Source: Sanghuangporus weigelae (taxonomy: Eukaryota; Basidiomycota; Agaricomycetes; Hymenochaetales; Hymenochaetaceae). From it: DNA of 64,000 nt. The notes under the pieces were generated by a model. It searched no databases, was not told the DNA's origin, and saw only the letters and a program-made list of their open reading frames with translations. Location of the stretch: contig CP137319.1 in assembly GCA_033182465.1 (NCBI GenBank), positions 868,001 through 932,000 on the forward strand, given 5' to 3'. Positions 1 to 64,000 of the stretch are shown in pieces (the first letter of the stretch is position 1; the number at the start of each line of letters is the position of its first letter). The position numbers were made by a program, and so were the translations under genes.

Positions 1-1921
1 TTTGCAGTACGATATTAAACAACAAGCTCTAAAGCTCACGGCGAACAGTATGTACGGATGCCTTGGGTTTGAGTATTCAAGGTTCTATGCTCGACCACTT
101 GCCGCCCTTACGACGTTCAAGGGACGTGAGATTCTTACCCATACCCGTGAACTTGCTGAGAGTCTTCAGCTCGACGTGCGTACTGCCTCTCCGATGTTCC
201 GATTCTTTCTTTGCTAAACCGTATATGCTAGGTTGTCTACGGTGACACGGACTCTGTCTTCGTCAACTCTAATGCCACGGACTTCGTTGAAGCTCTCAAG
301 GTCGCGTCTGAATTCAAGAAGCAGGTCAACGAGCAATACAAGCTCCTAGAAATTGATCTCGATGGCGTCTTTAAACGGCTGCTTCTACTACAGAAGAAGA
401 AGTACGCAGCACTTAAGATGGAGGACGCTACTAGAACTTCTGTTGAAGTGAAGGGGTTGGACATGAAGCGTCGAGAGTACTGCATGTTGTCAAAGGATGC
501 ATCTCAGTAAGTTTGATAGTGTTTCCAGACTGAGTTTGAAGTAACGTCTTGCAGATACCTACTAGACAAAATTCTGTCCGGTGAAGCTACCGAGACCGTT
601 GTCGAGCAGATCCATGAGTATCTTTCAAAACTCGGGGAAGATGTACGCAGCGGAAAGATAGGATTAGACAAGTTTATCATTTTCAAGGTAAGAAAAACGT
701 ACCAGCTTCAAAGTCAGCGTGATCGCTCATAGTCTATTCTAGCGTCTCGGTAAGAATCCAGAAGACTACCCCGACGCAAAGAGCCAACCGCATGTCACTG
801 TCGCTCTTCGCATGAAGTCGAAGGGTCAGTCAGCAAGAGCAGGCGATGTCATTCCGTATATTTTCTGTCTCAGCGATAGTGGCGAATCGAACAAGTCTGG
901 CCAAGCGGATAAGGCTCATCATCCTGACGAGTTGAGGAGGTCGAACGGGGTTTCTCAAATTGGTAAGCTTTAAGGACCCTTCAATCAGAATTGAGCTGAC
1001 TCGTTCTTGTCAGACTTCGAGTATTACCTCTCTCAGCAAATTCTCCCGCCCATCGAACGACTCTGCGAGCCTATCGAAGGTACTGACAGAGCACGTCTGG
1101 CAGAGTGCCTCGGTCTTGATCCTGGCCGGTTCCGCTCATATGTCGGAGGCGATTCAGAAGAACGGGCATTTGGTACCCTGGAATCGCAAATGCCTGATAG
1201 TGTGCGATTCAAAGACTGTGATCCATTGACGTTCCGGTGCAGGAAGTGTAGTGGTGAGATGCCGTTTACTCATATTTCTCGTCGGGATGTGAGTATAGAT
1301 TCGTCGTTTCCTTAATACTATCTCTGATACCAAACTTCACGACGTGCAGACCTCTATACTCCACACGAGTGGACCGATCTGTGCGGGTTGCCAGGCACCA
1401 TTGAACCCAGCAAGCATGCAAGTGCAACTCGAGAACCAGATTAGAGAACATATCAGTAGATACTACGAAGGCTGGACTGTTTGTGACGACGCAACATGTC
1501 GAAACCGTACACGCATGATGGGTGTCTATGGAAGACGTTGTTTGAAGCGTGGTTGCAAAGGCGCTGTTGCATTCGAGGTATATCATTTGCCCTGTGGCGT
1601 GTTTTATAGAGTTTCACTGAGTTACCTAACCCCTAGTACTCGGACAATCAGTTGTACACTCAACTGATGTACTATGCGAACCTTCTCGATGTTGAGAAGG
1701 TAAGGGAGGCTTCAAAGAGTAGTCCCCAGAAGAGTACGTAGCTAGCATTGTTCTTCAATAGGAGGGTTCTAATCATAAAATCGACAGGTACAATTGAAGC
1801 AGCTCTGCAGCAGAATCACACTCTTTTGAAAGACTTGCACGGCGTCGTGCAGAAGTATTTGTCCCAGTGCGGTAGGAGATACGTAGATTTGGGCAGTTTG
1901 TTTTCGTTCATGAAGGTGTAG
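1..1921 (+). CDS. POL1: DNA polymerase alpha catalytic subunit, 3' part (partial)
   Basis: Catalytic subunit of the replicative polymerase alpha-primase complex in the nucleus; it extends RNA primers. The 5' part lies outside the window. The first exon (to 175) carries family-B motif B ([13 protein letters not shown]). The next (232-506) carries motif C (YGDTDSV) and the KKKY motif ([11 protein letters not shown]). The C-terminal zinc module is visible as CRKC...CAGC (about 1243-1400) and CDDATC...CLKRGC (about 1485-1560). Introns inferred from GT-AG borders and frame: 176-231, 507-554, 688-742, 963-1013, 1289-1349, 1578-1636 and 1734-1787. The protein ends FMKV at 1921. The sequence ttgcag at positions 2-7 could be an intron acceptor or could encode LQ. 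Identity is firm because motif spacing and the C-terminal zinc fingers match Pol alpha rather than delta or zeta. Confidence 0.95.
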
Positions 1922-2098
1922 GATTTTAGAGTGCTTGTATTGTCTCGCTAATGCTTTGCTTGCTGTCCTTGTAATAGTCAATGCATTTATTTGTAATGTT
2001 CCCCTCTGCGATCAAATAACAGCATGGATTAGCTCCGTGCTACTGTGCGATATTAATTAAAAGAACTCACATGGGTGAATCTACATGAAAGCGTCGAA

Positions 2099-2863
2099 TT
2101 ATTGTGGGAGGACCGTCCCGTATTTTCTACGATAATAGACCAAGGGTAGAACATCGTTCTTCGAAGCAAGAGCTTCAACATTCTCTACTCGAGCAACGCG
2201 AGAAATAAACAACTCGGAAATCACGCCTCTCGAGACATCCGCATTCTCATCGCAAAGATTATGCAAGGGCATGCACGATATGAGCTCGCACGAGAGAGCA
2301 CCTAACGCGCCTGCGAGGATCGGTAAACCCTCAGCAGAGAGGGTATGAGGTATTATTCGGAATGGCTCTGGGAAGAGGTCGGCGCGAGCGAAGTGATGAG
2401 CGGTATCTGCTTGTTTGCTCGAGAGGAGATTGATTACGAGGTTCGGTGTCCGGGCTTGCGAGGCGCGGTCTTGCGTCATGCGCTCCTTCAGCGACGTTGC
2501 CATTCGCGAGGGAATGCGGAGGGAGAATGCGACGAGTGGGTCTGGATTGAGCGCAATGGAGGTGAATGAGGATAGCGTTGCGCCGTGGAATCTTTTATGA
2601 TGCGGTCGTTCGTCTCGGGATCGTGTTTCTTCACCCTCGTCCGAGGCGCCATCGAATGGATAGAATGAGGTAACGACAGCTACAGGTTGAGCGGTCTCGC
2701 GTAATAGTCGGCGCAAAGCGTCCTTTGTATCGTCCCTTGTCGAGGACATACACCGCTGTGGACGCCATGTTCTAGTGTAGATAAATTCACGCGCTCGACA
2801 ATGAGCGAGCGCAAGCATGGCGTACGCGGCGACGAGAAAGGCGACGATTCGCGTTTTCAACAT
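2099..2863 (-). CDS. Flavin reductase-like domain protein (FMN-binding split barrel)
   Basis: Single-exon protein of 254 residues. The core from FHGATLSSFTSIALNPDP through LVAFSL and LVINLLS to the later glycine/leucine-rich part is typical of the flavin reductase-like split barrel, which binds FMN and reduces flavin with NAD(P)H. The electron acceptor cannot be read from sequence. The first about 40 residues are hydrophobic, then rich in Arg and Ser, and end at a second possible start (MSSTRDD). The protein could be mitochondrial or membrane-anchored if the first Met is used, or soluble if the second is used. It lies head to head with the uL23m gene, so they probably share a very short promoter. 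Confidence 0.75.
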   Translation of the reverse strand: MLKTRIVAFLVAAYAMLALAHCRAREFIYTRTWRPQRCMSSTRDDTKDALRRLLRETAQPVAVVTSFYPFDGASDEGEETRSRDERPHHKRFHGATLSSFTSIALNPDPLVAFSLRIPSRMATSLKERMTQDRASQARTPNLVINLLSSKQADTAHHFARADLFPEPFRIIPHTLSAEGLPILAGALGALSCELISCMPLHNLCDENADVSRGVISELFISRVARVENVEALASKNDVLPLVYYRRKYGTVLPQ

Positions 2864-2954
2864 CCTAATATAGTAAAAATGATTGACGCTTGGATTGTAT
2901 CAGACTTTGTCGATCTTCTCTTTTGCTCAAACTGTGACTAGCAGCCTCACCATC

Positions 2955-3839
2955 ATGTCTATGACTATGGCATCCTGGTCAAGAGTTTCGCTTGTGTTGC
3001 GAGGCATAAGACGAACTTATGCAACAATCTCGTCCGATTCTGCTGCCGAGCTCGCGCAAGCAGCGTCCGCACCCTTAAAAATCAAAGAACGACGCGAGGA
3101 AACCGTGAAAGATTTCGCTCGTACACCACCAGAGGAACGCCGTCTCACGCTCGAAGAAAAACGGCGGCTGGTGCGTCCCCCCGTGCGTACCAAGTACGAA
3201 CGAAGTCGACTGCGCGGCGTGCGCGTCATGCGTCGGGCGGATGGGAGTATAGGAGAGCAAATCGTCGGGCAAAGAATCTACCTCCCCAATATCATCTTCA
3301 CTATGATTCCGAACCACACGCCTCCGGGTAGGCCTTACAATCCGTACGAAGCGACGTTCTACATCTCGAACTACCTTACCAAGACGGACGTGCGTTCGTA
3401 CCTACACGCGATCTACGGCGTCGAGTGCACGTACATCCGAACGGACAACTACTTCATGCCGATGAAACACCGCAAAGGCGTCGCTATCGGTCGAATGGCG
3501 AACAAGGGAAACAAGAAGACCCACAAACGCGCCGTCGTCGGTCTCAAAGAGCCGTTTTACTATCCGCAAATGGTAGAAGACATGAATGGCAAGGACCGCT
3601 GGCTCCGAGAAAACGCGATCGAGGATACGTTCCGTATAAAAGCATTGGAAGAAGCGCAGAAGGCGGTCAGCGTCAAGTCCACTACGGGCACGAGGGAAAA
3701 TAATATCTCGGCTCTTGCGCAGCAATGGGACTCGCGTAAGAAGATCATTCGGAGGCTGTGGGAGCGCAGGGAAGAGAGGGAGAGGGCCACGCGCGATTTG
3801 GCGCGGCAGTTGCAAGAAGCTCGGGAAGTAGAAAAGTAG
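2955..3839 (+). CDS. MRP20: Mitochondrial large-subunit ribosomal protein uL23m
   Basis: Structural protein of the mitochondrial 54S ribosomal subunit near the exit tunnel. One uninterrupted exon. The uL23 core is visible as YLPNIIFTMIPNH, then NPYEATFYISNYLTKTDVRSY and a basic stretch (GRMANKGNKKTHKRAVVGLK). An Arg- and Ser-rich presequence precedes it, and a long charged C-terminal extension (EEAQKAVSV onward) is usual for fungal uL23m. The frame is open from 2883, but I chose 2955 (MSMTMASW) because an earlier start would leave only 19 bp to the divergent flavin reductase gene; 2961 and 2967 are also possible. The stop is at 3837-3839. Confidence 0.85.
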   Translation: MSMTMASWSRVSLVLRGIRRTYATISSDSAAELAQAASAPLKIKERREETVKDFARTPPEERRLTLEEKRRLVRPPVRTKYERSRLRGVRVMRRADGSIGEQIVGQRIYLPNIIFTMIPNHTPPGRPYNPYEATFYISNYLTKTDVRSYLHAIYGVECTYIRTDNYFMPMKHRKGVAIGRMANKGNKKTHKRAVVGLKEPFYYPQMVEDMNGKDRWLRENAIEDTFRIKALEEAQKAVSVKSTTGTRENNISALAQQWDSRKKIIRRLWERREERERATRDLARQLQEAREVEK

Positions 3840-28086: not shown

Positions 28087-28153
28087 GGCCAGGGGGAAGT
28101 GAGGGATGATCTCAATCAGGGCTCCGCGCGTATCCGTAAATTACGGATGGATA

Positions 28154-28970
28154 CAGGCATTTACTGGTCCTTTAAACAGTACCCTTCCTTTGAACACTCT
28201 GCATTTACTCACTCAAACCTCTGATTTTCAACTTAAAATTTTTACCATAGGTGCATAGAATACACGTGAATCACGCTGTGAAATTGCAGCAAAATACCAT
28301 GTCCCGTTAAATCCAGAGAAATTATTTACTACTGAATTTCAGTAAAACTCAATGAGAAACAATGAATCAGGTGAATTTTGCTACTCCTTCATGCTTTGAG
28401 CATGGCTCAAAAGTAGATATATTTATACTATGCTACTGTAAGTACATGCAGCCCAGTTTTTGTGGCAAAAGAGCTATCCAATGAATTAATATAAGACATA
28501 CAACAAAGGTGACTTGAAAAGCGTGACAGGCAGGGTGATCAACATTATTACGTAATCGGGCGGATTTCATCTCGCTAATTCTCCCTATTATTTTGCTAAA
28601 TATTCAACAATTTTTTCTCCTCCCTTTACCATCCTCTACGGCATAATGGGTGCAGAGGGATGAGAGGGCAGCAGGGGAGACGGTCATGAGAGGAGAGATA
28701 GGGGCAGAAGCACGACGACGGGCAGCAATTATGCACTAGCGTGACAGTTGTGTCACAAGGTGTTCAAAGGAGTTAATTTCGTGACATTTACCCTACTTTT
28801 TTCACACGCATAATTTAATTTTTCCTGCACATTTTACAGCTCAAAAAAAATTCAGCATGTAGCCTCCATAGCAGGCTACTCAGATATGTAATTAGTTTTC
28901 TCTAAAAGTGCTTGTTGTGTTGTGTACGAGTGGATCTGTATTGGGTGTTCAAAGAACCAGTAAATGCCTG
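28154..28970 (+). mobile_element. MITE family A, copy 1 (TA-flanked, Tc1/mariner-like)
   Basis: Non-coding 817-bp element. Its left end CAGGCATTTACTGGTCCTTT is inverted at its right end (..AAAGAACCAGTAAATGCCTG), and it is bordered on both sides by TA (28152-28153 and 28971-28972). The body is AT-rich and aligns along most of its length with copy 2 at 29663-30330. Copy 1 carries about 150 bp extra (about 28565-28735). The superfamily assignment rests on the TA duplication only. Confidence 0.75.
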
Positions 28971-29198
28971 TATGGCCCGCATCATATATGCATACGGCCG
29001 TGTCCATAAGTACTGCTGCTCTTTGGAAGCAAATATACAGGCCGTAAAAATATGGCCATCCCCATATGCGGACCTTGTTACGGGTACGCACGGAGACCTA
29101 TCAGCTTCTAATGCATCATGTGATCAAATTTTGCTATTTCTGGGTACTGATCGACTTCTTTCTCTATGAGTGTTTTGACAATTAATTGGAACAGTTTA
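28971..29198. other. Spacer between transposon copies
   Basis: About 225 bp with no gene. It contains GGCCGT/ATATGG palindrome-rich sequence (about 28973-29090) loosely similar to the hAT-like MITE at 61188, possibly a decayed relative. Confidence 0.35.
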
Positions 29199-29651
29199 GG
29201 CCCTGATCGGTAAAAAAAATAACGGGTGGATAAGGGCGGATAACTGGATAACGAGTTAACGACGTGGGATCCGGCATTTTCCCTCTTTATTTGTTCCTAT
29301 TTGTTCAGATAGTGTAATCATCACTTCCGTAATGTTCCGGTACCAAAATGGCAGGGATCTGCCTCAATCATACATTTGCAATAAATCATCCAGTTGGGAT
29401 ATGTAGACTTTGACTTGCATGCTGACAGAGTAAAGCTACTTTTATTATTACCAAGTAATTCTAAGTCACCATCAGCTGTTGGGACATGTAACTTCTAAAT
29501 GTGGCAAGTGTGTCGATCGCGTTTGTAATCCAGTGATCAGCAGATGCCGAGTGCTGCCGACTAAATTACCTCACAACAGGTAGCCTCCGAGTCGCACGAT
29601 CTTAATCTTTGGATAAGCTATCCGCCGTTATTTTTTTTACCGATCAGGCCC
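29199..29651. mobile_element. Harbinger/Tourist-like MITE
   Basis: A 453-bp non-coding element with 27-bp terminal inverted repeats beginning GGCCCTGATCGG (left) and, on the reverse strand, GGGCCTGATCGG (right). Both continue with a run of eight A and then TAACGG. It is flanked by TTA on both sides (29196-29198, 29652-29654). The GG-C-rich terminus and 3-bp TTA duplication fit PIF/Harbinger-derived MITEs. Confidence 0.75.
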
Positions 29652-29662
29652 TTATAGTACTA

Positions 29663-30330
29663 CAGGCATTTACTGGTCCTTTAAATAGTACCCTTCCTTT
29701 GAACACCCTACATTTTCTCACTCAAACCTCCGATTTGCAACTTGAAAATTTTATCATGGGTGGACAGAATACACATGAGTCATGCTGTGAAATTTCAGCA
29801 AATTACTATGTCCCGTAAATACAGAGAAATTATTTACTGCTGAATTTTAGTGAAACTCAATGAGAAACAATGAATCAGATGCATTTTGCTATTCATTCAT
29901 GCTTTGAGCATGGCTAAAAAGTGGATATATTAGTACTCCACTACTGTAAGTACATGCAGCATAGTTTTTGTGGCGAAAGAGCTATCCAATGAATTAATAT
30001 AAGGCATACAATAAAGGTGACTTGAAAAGCGTGACAGGCAGACTTATCAACATTATTATGTAATCGGGTGGATACACAAATACAAGCGCTAGCATGACAG
30101 TTATGTCACAAGGAGTTCAAAGGAGTTAATTTTGTGACCATGACATTTACCCTACTTTTTTCACACGCACAATTTAATTTTTCCTGCACATTTTACAGCT
30201 CAAAAAATTTTCAGCATATAGCCTTCATAGCAGACTACTCAGATATGTAATTAGATTTTTTTTTAAATGTTTGTGGTGTTGTTGTACGAGTGGATCTGTA
30301 TTGGGTGTTCAAAGGACCAATAAATGCCTG
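29663..30330 (+). mobile_element. MITE family A, copy 2
   Basis: A 668-bp copy in the same orientation as copy 1, bordered by TA (29661-29662, 30331-30332), with CAGGCATTTACTGGTCCTTT at the left and its inverse at the right. It lies only a few bases after the Harbinger-like MITE. The body lacks the 150-bp segment present in copy 1. Confidence 0.75.
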
Positions 30331-30332
30331 TA

Positions 30333-59837: not shown

Positions 59838-60079
59838 TACAGTCATTAACCGATCCTTTGAACACCTATTACAGATCCACTTATAGCTCACTACGCAGCG
59901 CTTTTCTCAAAACTGAGCACATACTCCAATTTTCTACCATGAGATACACCTGCTGATTTTTTTTCCAAAACTAGTCGTAATATAGACATGAAAAACTAAT
60001 ATCGCCAACTGAAAAAACATAGGTCACAAAAACGGTCCTTTGAACACCGTGTGACATTAGAAAACGCCAGCCTGGCATA
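59838..60079 (-). mobile_element. Diverged MITE family A fragment, interrupted by the CACTA-like element
   Basis: In reverse orientation the sequence from TACAGTCATTAACC through GATCCTTTGAACACC and TTACAGATCCACTTA matches the right end of family A copies. Near 60023-60055, GGTCACAAAA...CTTTGAACACC...GTGACAT matches their interior. The 3.3 kb element begins at 60080, so this is probably a truncated or split copy. Parts of 63377-63440 may be the other side, but the similarity is weak. Confidence 0.5.
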
Positions 60080-60513
60080 CACACCGGGCAAAGAGTTATT
60101 ATAATCTAAAAGAAATTTATAATTAGCTGACAAACAAGATTTGAAATTAAATACTGCATTTAATTACGTGAAATATTTCATGTTTGTTCCTTGATAGAAC
60201 TTGAAATAACAATAAGGATTTAGATTCGGATTAGGAAAACAAAGAGATTTCAAATAATGTCGTGTGAGGAACACATAAAGAAACTTGAAGTCTTAGAAAA
60301 GCAAAAATGGTTAAGTTTAGTTATTGCCGAAATTTTATGTCTTTGATAGGAAGAAATTTAAAATTCTTTTTATTATTCTGACAAAGAAAAAATAAGTTTG
60401 ACTCTCAGTGGGCGCTCAGTGGGCGATCGGCGGGCGATCCGAGGGCGATCCGAGGGCGCTCAGCGGGCGCTCAGAGGATGCTCAGCGGGCACTCAGAGGG
60501 CGATCGGCGGGCA
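60080..60513 (+). repeat. Left inverted arm of the CACTA-like element
   Basis: 434 bp. The outer 324 bp are AT-rich and match the right arm in inverse. The inner 110 bp (60404-60513) are ten 11-bp units of the type CTCAGTGGGCG / ATCGGCGGGCG. Confidence 0.9.
60404..60513 (+). repeat. 11-bp tandem array, ten units
   Basis: GC-rich units with consensus [AC]TC-[AGC]-G-[TCA]-GGGCG. The inverse array at 62987-63052 has six units. Four units present here are absent there. Confidence 0.88.
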
Positions 60514-60692
60514 ATAGGAAGGAAGCCACCTTCGGATCTGTAACATCGACACGGTAGCGATGCTCGAATTCGCGATCATTGATACCGAACGTTTTAATGC
60601 TCTGTCTCTCAATGAAAGTCTCATCCATGCCACCTTTGCCATAGACGAACTGTATGAGATTACCCAACGAGTTCCGAACAGTCCCGTCATAA

Positions 60693-60822
60693 CACACCGG
60701 GCAAAAACTCATTTTCGAACCGTGAAAATGTTACCCAGAATGGAAAAAGAGCCAATCGGATGAGAGCTCACCCGTTCCGATCAAAATTTCTAAGGGCGCG
60801 GAATGAGTTTTTGCCCGGTGTG
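60693..60822. mobile_element. 130-bp MITE with the same termini as its carrier element
   Basis: Perfect 21-bp inverted ends starting CACACCGGGCAAAAACTC, flanked by TAA on both sides (60690-60692, 60823-60825). It sits in the RPB1 fragment between LEDHGT and CYDGTVRNS, an exon position in normal RPB1. The first 13 bases are the same as those of the 3.3 kb carrier. Confidence 0.85.
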
Positions 60823-61187
60823 TAATGTACCATGGTCTTCTAGAGTCTTGACAAGCCGCCGTTGGATGTAGCCAATCTCCGCCGTCTTGACAGCCGTGTC
60901 AATTAATCCCTCGCGACCCGCCATGGCGTGAAAGAAGAACTCTTGCGGTGTTAATCCACGCAAGTAGGAATTCTCAATGAAAGCCGGCGCCTCTGGACTG
61001 AAATCATCCTTCATGAAGTGCGGTAGTGTTCGATGTCTGAAGCCGAACGGGATACACTTCCCTTCCACGGATTGCTGACCGACGCAAACAGACATCTGGG
61101 AGATGTTGATGAAGGAACCCTGGGAACCAGCGACTACCATCTGCTTGGCATTATTGTCCTCTTTGTGGTTCTCCTGAGCATATTGAC

Positions 61188-61816
61188 TAGGGCTCCGACC
61201 GTATGCGTATAACCCGTATACGGGCTGTCCGTATACGGGTACGGCCGTATCCGTATGACACAATAAGAGCAAAATATACGGGCCGTATATATGCGGCCGT
61301 ATCCGTATTCAAAGGTTTAAAAATTTGACGTTTACGGCTTATACGTCGTATACGGGAGCTGAGGTCCCGTGTCTCCCGGTAGCATAGAATTAGGTATATT
61401 TTATGCCATTTTTGGTGATTTGGTAGATCACTTACTTGAAAAATATATTCCCGGGCTACCAAAGTGAGGAAGGGACTATACAGTACTGTTCCCACGCATC
61501 TCCTTTCTATCGCGGTCCACTGAATTTGCCTCAGACTCCGCTGCGCCCTTCCTGGCAGGGGTGAACAACCTGAAAGTGCTGTATTTGCGCTATGTAAGGT
61601 CCAGATAACTCGAAATGAACAAGTTCAACTCATTTTATTTCCATTCTACAGTTTCTGCTCTGTAACTGCCGTATACGGCGTATTCCCCGTATACGGGCTG
61701 TCCGTATCCGTATAACGGTCTGGTGTGCCATATATACGGGCGTATATATACGCCCGTATCCGTATGAAGCTTCTTTTATACGGCCGTACCCGTATACGGA
61801 TACGGTCGGAGCCCTA
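61188..61816. mobile_element. hAT-like MITE inserted in the RPB1 fragment
   Basis: A 629-bp element with inverted ends TAGGGCTCCGACCGTAT and an 8-bp duplication ATATTGAC on both sides (61180-61187, 61817-61824). The subterminal sequence is full of CCGTATACGG-type palindromes. The TA-N-GG start and 8-bp duplication match hAT elements. Removing the element and one duplication restores the RPB1 reading ...[14 protein letters not shown]. No transposase. Confidence 0.88.
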
Positions 61817-62986
61817 ATATTGACCAGAGGGATCACGAGCCAAATTGAGCTCCCGTTCGACTTGACTCTCGAAGGATTCGTGGATAGTCATACCCGGAGC
61901 TGCTTTCAGGCGATCCATGGCCGCATCTTCTATGACTTTGGCAATATTCTGTTTCCGCATCTTAATCTGCTCCGTGATGTACGCCATCGTTTTTCTGTCT
62001 GCAACCGTATCGCCGATACCGATACTGAATCCATTGTGGAACAGCCAATAATTGACGATATTCTGCAGACCCATAAAGAGCGATCGTGTAGCTTCAGGAC
62101 CTTTCTCTCGGAAAACAACGTGCATCAGGCCGCCCTGGGATGCGCCAACGGTCTTCTTTCTCAACAATACCAAAGATGATCTCGCCATTCTCGATCAGTA
62201 TGCCATCATCGAAGACAGGACTCCATGACTTGTTCTCGGGCGACCGGAAAATGTTGATCCCACGCGGGATTGTCATGCTAAGAATTTGCTTGCCCGTCCA
62301 TAAAAAATTGGGTTTCAAAATGGTTGGTGTTGGGATCGTGCCGTCCCAATTCGGTACCCAAAGCAGTATATTCTGTACTTGTTGCCAATCAAGGGAACAA
62401 CCTCGCAAGGTGAACTTGCGGATACCGCAAAGAGTATCCTGCACGATACCAATAACGGGCTTGTTCGCTTGGGGCGAAATGATCTGCCTGGGGACCCATT
62501 CTATTTGACTGAGCTCGGCCCGAGTCTCCTCGCTCTGGGGGACACTACACGAAGATGAGAAACGGCAGCACAAGGCGGCAGTGATACGACGTACTGCATG
62601 TTCATTTCATCACCATCGAAGTCGGCGTTGTACGGAGGAGTAATGGAAAGATTGAGACGAACGGTTGCATAGAATTGGTCAGAGTTCAGACATGAACATA
62701 TAGGTCGAGCACGCACTTGAATAGGGCATTAGTCGGATCCTGTGACACATCATAGACCTTTGTGCGTGCAATTATGGCTGTCTGTTGAAGAGGACATAAC
62801 TGCGTTGATAGATAAATGAGACTAGATCAGGCGCTACTGAATGGTAGACTTACTCTCCGTTCATTAAGTGCCTTTCAAAGATCCATCCATACTGAAGAAA
62901 TGCATCTGCATGCTTATTTTATTGAAGAGCTATATAGAGGATGCATGGACTGGTTAAGCATTGTATGTATGGTGAAATATCAGGAT

Positions 62987-63376
62987 TGCCCTCTGAGTGC
63001 CCGCTGAGCATCCTCTGAGCGCCCGCCGATCGCCCACTGAGCGCCCACTGAGAGTCAAACTTATTTTTTCTTTGTCAGAATAATAAAAAGAATTTTAAAT
63101 TTCTTCCTATCAAAGACATAAAATTTCGGCAATAACTAAACTTAACCATTTTTACTTTTCTAAGACTTCAAGTTTCTTTATGTGTTCCTCACACGACATT
63201 ATTTGAAATCTCTTTGTTTTCCTAATCCGAATCTAAATCCTTATTGTTATTTCAAGTTCTATCAAGGAACAAACATGAAATATTTCACGTAATTAAATGC
63301 AGTATTTAATTTCAAATCTTGTTTGTCAGCTAATTATAAATTTCTTTTAGATTATAATAACTCTTTGCCCGGTGTG
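62987..63376 (-). repeat. Right inverted arm of the CACTA-like element
   Basis: 390 bp, inverse of the left arm. The inner array (62987-63052) has six 11-bp units against ten on the left, which accounts for the whole 44-bp length difference. Confidence 0.9.
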
Positions 63377-64000
63377 ATAACAACGTCGATCACATTATGT
63401 AAATAGACTAATTGTGCATCTGTCACATTTCTTTGCTTGTTTGGCTTGCATTAATTTACTGAGAGCATAATCCTCCATGAAAATAGAAAATAAGACACTT
63501 CTAATAGAGTGATATTAGCTTATAAATTTAGAAGCTATATATTTGTTGACAGAAAAATGCACAGGATCAATTTCATCAGAGTGAGGTTACCAGTTTGAAA
63601 GGATCCGCTCAAAATCTTGCATCAGGATCGACACGATCAACAGATCTACATGATCAACAGATCTACACGATCAGCTTTCCAAACGCGACCGGTAACCAAG
63701 CCAGCTATCACAGGCCCAAGCAATCGAGCGGCCTAGGCAACAGTAACCCGTTACCACCCGAGCGCTAGAAGCACTGAAGCGGTGAAGAGTAAGACTAAAG
63801 CTTGGGAGCGTACGAAGTCGTTACGACCAGTTCCGCGGTATTCCGACTGGTTTCGCCCGGTTCCGACGGGTTTCGCTGGAGCGAGTGGACTTAGCAAGAA
63901 CGCCATAGTCTAAATGGCACGTGCACCGTTCCGTGATCGGCCATCATATAAGACACGGCAGAAGAATCACGCGACGATCCTACACGCGTCAATCACAAGT
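63377..64000. other. Unassigned sequence at the window end
   Basis: No gene. About 63377-63600 is AT-rich. Near 63627-63675 a 17-18 bp unit (GATCAACAGATCTACA-like) occurs about two to three times. From about 63680 the DNA turns GC-richer with TTTCGCCCGGTTCC/GGTTCCGAC-like short repeats (63837-63880) and a CATATAAGA at 63945-63953. It could be the start of a transposon or LTR that continues outside the window, but no end can be shown. Confidence 0.4.

Follow-up and report, generated by a model that had tools for sequence, protein, structure and literature searches.

Pack-CACTA transposons, described in plants, are non-autonomous elements with CACTA ends that hold a piece of a host gene between terminal inverted repeats (TIRs), are bordered by target-site duplications (TSDs) and occur in multiple copies. 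The accessible parts of PMC8903248, PMC13317346 and PMC8616336 propose that capture involves neighbouring insertions together with aberrant excision; the first two do not mention 'fungi' or 'fungal' in their main texts, and the third is on plants. According to the parts of PMC3538342 and PMC6710886 at hand, hAT transposons of the fungi Pyrenophora and Pseudocercospora amplified a housekeeping gene, histone H3, by transduplication; in Pseudocercospora the H3 copies are dead and the original is intact, and in Pyrenophora H3 is found in long forms with a transposase as well as in short ones. Captured gene sequences have also been described in Helitrons of Pleurotus ostreatus (PMC4289320, in part), and fungal EnSpm elements with CAC..GTG ends, 3-bp TSDs and a CMC-type transposase carry an extra TET/JBP gene (PMC12730594, likewise in part). 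Here we analysed a window of 64,000 nucleotides from Sanghuangporus weigelae (G000:C2:868001-932000, on contig CP137319.1; the assembly has 33.87 Mb in 13 contigs, labelled C1, C2 and so on), in which a non-autonomous transposon at 60080-63376 carries a piece of RPB1, the gene for the largest subunit of RNA polymerase II (Pol II). It is very probable that this is a Pack-type CACTA/EnSpm element whose RPB1 piece was captured once, long ago, decayed, and was spread in trans to at least 15 loci.

The window element has the plant Pack-CACTA features named above, but here several classes of pieces come from one essential gene and transposase-bearing relatives carry a piece too. With the H3 system it shares the amplification of a housekeeping gene by a fungal DNA transposon, although those elements are hAT (with 8-bp TSDs in Pseudocercospora), the hosts are ascomycetes and the gene is H3; moreover, the Pseudocercospora copies lack introns, so that a transcript or retrocopy was captured, whereas the RPB1 cargo keeps them. 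The EnSpm elements of PMC12730594, as described in the accessible part, encode an enzyme that likely helps escape from silencing, whereas the window element holds a dead gene fragment, and the Pleurotus Helitrons differ in being rolling-circle elements with neither TIRs nor TSDs. What is new is the CACTA superfamily, the RPB1 cargo, the retained introns and the several RPB1 classes, while Pack-CACTA in plants and fungal capture by hAT elements and Helitrons were already known. Neither RPB1 capture nor a fungal Pack-CACTA was found among the titles and abstract openings in a literature search whose coverage largely excluded subscription journals.

The element is bounded by inverted arms of 389 nt that are 97% complementary and end in CACACCGGGCAAA (short form CACACCGGGC...GCCCGGTGTG), which gives the CAC...GTG ends applied to fungal EnSpm elements in PMC12730594 (seen in part). 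A single position distinguishes the two arms over their outer 322 nt, and the preliminary description of this DNA was thus right in calling them nearly identical. An array of short 11-bp repeats lies at the inner end of the left arm and has a partner in the right arm; such subterminal repeats are typical of the CACTA/EnSpm superfamily. An 8-bp TSD, as in hAT elements, was seen only at a nested 629-bp insert, the outer element having one of 3 bp. Profile searches of the whole genome for Plavaka and Transposase_21 gave no match inside the element. The space between the arms is filled by RPB1 sequence, two nested inserts and short spacers, with nothing left unexplained. The features, with the cargo numbered against the intact RPB1 locus (L070), are as follows.

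60077-60079: target-site duplication ATA, left; a single ATA stands at the paralogous empty site
60080-60468, plus strand: left inverted arm, terminus CACACCGGGCAAA
60404-60512, plus strand: subterminal array of 11-bp units, CTCAGYGGGCG-like (family D1)
60516-60692, minus strand: RPB1 cargo, 3' piece of the captured stretch, reverse complement of L070 5162-4985
60693-60822: nested 130-bp miniature inverted-repeat transposable element (MITE) with the same CACACCGGGC termini; TSD TAA at 60690-60692 and 60823-60825
60823-61187, minus strand: RPB1 cargo, middle piece, reverse complement of L070 4987-4621
61188-61816: nested 629-bp hAT-like insert with inverted TAGGGCTCCGACC ends; 8-bp TSD ATATTGAC
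61817-62934, minus strand: RPB1 cargo, 5' piece with three introns and the NADFDGD motif
62988-63376, minus strand: right inverted arm, including a subterminal 11-bp array at about 62990-63052
63377-63379: target-site duplication ATA, right
29655-30332, minus strand, outside the element: empty paralogous site of the sister element C2:1032062-1034687, with a single TGC

Three pieces of the cargo, together 1,649 bp, matched the intact RPB1 locus, and along with the arms and the ATA duplication this match confirmed the transposon with an intron-containing RPB1 piece that the preliminary description had proposed. The 2.4 kb of RPB1 given there proved to be the span, in which 1.65 kb is RPB1 and two further transposons, the 130-bp MITE and the 629-bp insert, are nested. 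The ends of the latter are also given as TAGGGCTCC, its TSD is 8 bp long, and by these two characters we take it to be hAT-like. The sister cargo at C2:1032 is free of both inserts and has one copy of each TSD at the corresponding place (one TAA for the MITE). The MITE with the termini of the window element seems to be abundant, as many plus/minus pairs of the terminal 13-mer spanning 130 bp were seen among the matches listed.

The cargo retains three introns (the third at 62545-62594), whose lengths in the gene are 54, 52 and 50 nt, and therefore genomic DNA was captured. The window cargo departs from the gene at 19 of 156 sites in introns and at 96 of 1,489 in exons. The motif NADFDGD is encoded at 62595-62629, in agreement with the DFDGD reported earlier, and the middle piece (60823-61187) encodes a 24-residue stretch that is presumably the bridge helix. 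Pfam placed RPB1 domains 4 and 5 in the window open reading frame (ORF) 60793-61308, and a longer frame of a sister copy matched RPB1 of Pol II far better than the Pol I and Pol III subunits. The intact gene lies on C1, around 3991799-3997799, with an open frame of 1,216 aa whose best solved-structure match was 3h0g, annotated rpb1. The possibility raised at the outset, that the window itself holds the intact RPB1 locus, was therefore rejected, since the window copy is frameshifted and the open frame is on C1. It is clear that the element is of the Pack-TYPE: it is a mobile, multicopy element with a gene piece between its ends, the parent gene elsewhere and no transposase of its own.

When the genome was searched with the arm and with the RPB1 fragment, both were found to be multicopy, with the same cargo, as expected for a mobile element. 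The arm search, in which 40 of 64 candidates were scored, gave at least 46 matches, many of them with 97-100% identity over the full length; in addition, the exact terminal 13-mer occurred 182 times, against once for the reversed pattern, and so the window element is not a chance structure. Cargo of the window class was present at 15 or more loci, and in 15 of 15 an arm or part of one adjoined it. Their right boundary was the same in all 15, at 3559-3561 of the RPB1 query (within 2 bp), and the left boundary was at 1914 in 10 of the 11 copies that reach the left end, C7:1780 going 23 bp further. Frameshifts were also held in common: a +1 in all 11 copies that cover the site, and a -2 and a -1 in 15 of 15 each. 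The common boundaries and frameshifts demonstrate one capture for these loci, broken before it spread. The cargoes of C3, C2:1032, C8, C9 and the window diverge from each other by 0.1-0.5%, and that of C7 from this young group of five by 11.6-11.7%. The window cargo is 0.3-0.5% away from its four closest kin (C3, C2:1032, C8 and C9), which argues for recent movement; with the shared frameshifts, the suggestion of a recent move of an already decayed cargo found support.

Changes that separate the gene from every copy with a base at the site comprise 33 synonymous and 9 nonsynonymous differences, whereas among the copies there are 104 synonymous, 221 nonsynonymous and 16 nonsense differences. 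To judge from these sequence comparisons, the fixed set looks like that of a constrained gene changing after the capture, and the differences among copies look like those of a pseudogene. The capture is old, because the fixed set amounts to about 10% of some 325 synonymous sites. Private changes of older copies were mostly C-to-T or G-to-A (C10:45, 27 of 28; C11:235, 14 of 15; C5:2640, 35 of 44; C7:1780, 60 of 85); the share was lower in C1:1000 (2 of 7) and C1:776 (5 of 9). The contexts were mixed, CpG being frequent in some copies. This excess would fit methylation-driven mutation or a process like repeat-induced point mutation, which would shift the nonsynonymous and nonsense counts in the affected older copies.

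Past mobility is documented by TSDs and empty sites. Exact 3-bp TSDs were found in 12 of the 15 elements with both ends observed, namely in 7 of 10 RPB1 carriers (TAT, TGC, ATA, TAT, TTT, TGA and ATG) and in all five of the others (ACT, TTC, TAA, TGG and TTT). The last group includes C11_244, 4.9 kb long with the TSD TTC, whose arms are about 72% like those of the window element and which has no RPB1 match. Empty sites with a single TSD were identified for three RPB1-carrying elements and for the nested MITE. That of the window element, foreseen in the preliminary description as an empty site with one ATA, was found in a paralogous repeat on C1, where the sequence to the right of the C1:776 copy is CTTGGCATAACAACGTCG, with one ATA at the insertion point, some 22-30 bp being contiguous to the left, with the C1:776 element beside them, and the right side aligning on. 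For C10:45, the empty site with a single ATG is in a repeat copy on C5 that is 89% alike over 240 bp, and for the sister element C2:1032062-1034687 it is the TGC site listed above. Another pair of sites, C5:276986 and C5:290119, was considered as the ends of a 13-kb element and dropped from the TSD count, the flanks being ATA and TAA and both having MITE-like sequence.

Arms of 12 elements were compared with each other. The two arms of one element differ at 0-16 columns, and arms of different lineages at up to 112. In C5:2640, which descends from the same capture, the arms are 16 columns apart but at least 37 from any other arm, and they have 29 private states in common; C2:3932, without cargo, has identical arms that are at least 59 columns from others; in C11:244 the figures are 4 columns between its own arms and 84 to others; and C1:776 has identical arms with 9 private columns present in both. 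Without any exchange, the two arms of an element should have diverged about as much as the lineages have, and those observed are closer; arms have therefore been homogenised within these elements, as the preliminary description had suggested. The process was incomplete: the arms of C1:1000, C10:45 and C12:718 are no closer to each other than to the arms of sister elements, and five young elements, with 0-5 arm differences, are uninformative.

Transposase_21 (tnp2; PF02992) was detected at three loci, with Pfam E-values of 2.4e-12, 1.3e-11 and 4e-10, and two of the three lie between mapped arms. The match at C1:206309 is inside an element of about 19.9 kb (C1:195805-215722) with arms of about 425 nt that are 97% alike, the terminus CACAGCGGGCAAA and the TSD TTT. 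Similarly, the match at C6:2034737 is located between arms at C6:2027145 and C6:2045731 (about 18.6 kb); compared with it, the C1 transposase stretch has about 1.5 kb inserted. No ends were mapped for the third, on C5. Between the window arms and those of the transposase-bearing elements, the terminal 13-mer is the same but for one base, and the subterminal repeats are about 76% alike. The ORFs contain CSHC (L072 and L073) or CSVC (L074), and HMATH and FPFERLIG (L073 and L074), which in our reading correspond to the C(2)C, H(3-4)H, E pattern of the clade given in the accessible part of PMC12730594. It seems likely that these Transposase_21 elements supply transposase in trans to the window element.

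In our reading, 1.65 kb of genomic DNA from RPB1, with its exons and introns, entered an ancestral element long ago and came to lie between two inverted arms that are nearly identical. The route may have been neighbouring insertions, as in the published Pack-CACTA model, or faulty gap repair. The captured piece decayed to a pseudogene, and a CACTA transposase acting in trans on the arms would have distributed it, already dead, over at least 15 loci; the copy in the window is one of the youngest group. Exchange, probably gene conversion, has kept the arms of several elements alike. The cargo would need no function in this scheme and is most likely passenger DNA.

Several observations weigh against this proposal. 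The literal plant pentamer CACTA is missing from the ends of the window element, and outside the termini and the subterminal repeats its arms have no match to the transposase-bearing arms. Three elements depart from the 3-bp TSD rule, C8:1532 having a 4-bp CATT and C1:776 and C5:2640 none. The empty site used for the window element lies about 22 bp from C1:776, an RPB1 element without a TSD, and all empty sites are paralogous repeats and not alleles. Finally, the case for mobility consists of copies and empty sites within one assembly, not of an observed transposition.

The most surprising aspect is that RPB1 pieces recur, including in the transposase-bearing relatives. Both of these (C1:195805-215722 and C6:2027145-2045731) carry an RPB1 piece beside one arm; the two pieces are 100% identical over the 740 bp compared, and C6:173602-177092, an element of 3.5 kb, has a piece 96% identical to them. 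With introns kept, the C1 piece resembles the gene at 86%; inspection by eye showed a TAG in frame and two deletions, of 18 and 4 bp. A search with 6,001 bp of RPB1 DNA, in which 40 of 48 candidates were scored, gave at least 46 matches. One is the gene, and we grouped the other 45 into 33 loci, of which 15 belong to the window class. Of the remaining 18, three are between two mapped arms, two are near one arm, and 13 are without an assigned element. Piece boundaries recur at 1914-3561, 1499-2449 (or 1508) and 760-2000, with a further class, 1185-2394, obtained by joining interrupted pieces. The RPB1 profile (PF04998) gave 21 matches: the gene, 15 in cargo copies and five at two places on C4, which we took for the Pol I and Pol III genes. 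As controls, few in number, two genes were searched by profile, a method less sensitive to decayed DNA than the RPB1 DNA search; RPB2 (PF00562) and HSP90 (PF00183) gave seven matches each, in three and two places respectively, without scatter. More diverged pieces of the 5' part of RPB1 were noticed at C2:2767179-2768149 and C10:1797852-1798718 (75% and 78%), both without an assigned element.

All RPB1 pieces might instead stem from one ancient capture of a large 5' stretch that was later cut by internal deletion. Among the matches listed, 45 of the 45 outside the gene fall within 70-3561 of the 6,001-bp query and none lies past 3561, and this common limit argues for a single capture. The boundaries of the classes, however, differ on both sides, and the window class and the transposase-element piece have no nonsynonymous change relative to the gene in common. 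In a three-way comparison of the gene, the window class and the C1 piece over 513 columns, sites at which one of them stood apart, counted as synonymous, intron and nonsynonymous, numbered 6, 10 and 0 for the gene, 11, 11 and 15 for the C1 piece, and 8, 7 and 14 for the window class; three sites differed in all. Because the gene-alone set has no nonsynonymous site, the two pieces do not have a long pseudogene history in common, and the comparison would favour separate captures, or one capture that was split at once. We therefore regard the single large capture as possible but rather doubtful.

If captures were repeated, CACTA elements might take RPB1 pieces and retain them as a shield, in that homology-based silencing of the shared sequence (by small RNAs, methylation or C-to-T repeat mutation) would harm the host. 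We consider this improbable, and the protective role is speculation.

It is also quite improbable that the cargo is functional and under selection as an expressed RPB1 fragment, protein or RNA, with an effect on Pol II or on silencing. Stop-to-stop frames of 245 and 170 aa persist in a young copy, RPB1 pieces are present in several classes, and the pairwise ratio of nonsynonymous to synonymous substitution (dN/dS) against the gene is 0.19-0.22 for young copies. This low ratio, however, stems from the 33 synonymous and 9 nonsynonymous fixed differences and is expected if the gene itself changed. Nonsynonymous and nonsense differences among the copies (237) exceed the synonymous ones (104), and on this ground selection on the cargo as a protein was rejected; the frameshifts common to the copies argue in the same direction.

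Assignment of the element to Plavaka, hAT or PIF/Harbinger rather than to CACTA/EnSpm is very unlikely. Plavaka is present in the genome (eight matches, six above the cut-off), it is a related lineage according to the part of PMC12730594 consulted, and the Plavaka model has a weak match to one of the Transposase_21 proteins as well. The published Plavaka ends in the same source are TGT..ACA or CATCA..TGATG, not CAC..GTG as here, and a Plavaka identity was rejected on this criterion; furthermore, the TSDs of the family are 3 bp long with varied sequence, and the transposase found between matching ends is Transposase_21. Least probable is that RPB1 was first multiplied by segmental duplication and that the loci gained their transposon arms only afterwards: a duplicated stretch may in principle come to be enclosed by inverted arms, but the same boundaries at 15 loci, the 3-bp TSDs and the empty sites with a single TSD contradict this.

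One assembly thus holds a Pack-CACTA family together with its sister copies and empty sites, the intact parent gene and an element that is likely the autonomous partner, and for this reason the order of capture, decay and spread is readable. The several RPB1 classes also allow one to test whether pieces are captured at random, by targeting or to the benefit of the transposon. Fungal taxonomy uses RPB1 as a marker, so that such copies could mislead the polymerase chain reaction and gene prediction.

We also noted some features of the surrounding repeats. The window element, with its flanks at 59838-60049 and 63377-63588, and the C1:776 element are about 22 bp apart in copies of one repeat and thus represent two insertions at almost one point. 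Window positions 28152-30332 form another repeat, of two direct copies spaced 1.35-1.5 kb whose matching pieces are 88-96% alike; a further copy, on C2, holds a sister element. At C5:2639307-2650927 (L065 and L066), an RPB1-carrying element is split by a Ty3-type retrotransposon, as judged by eye from the frames.

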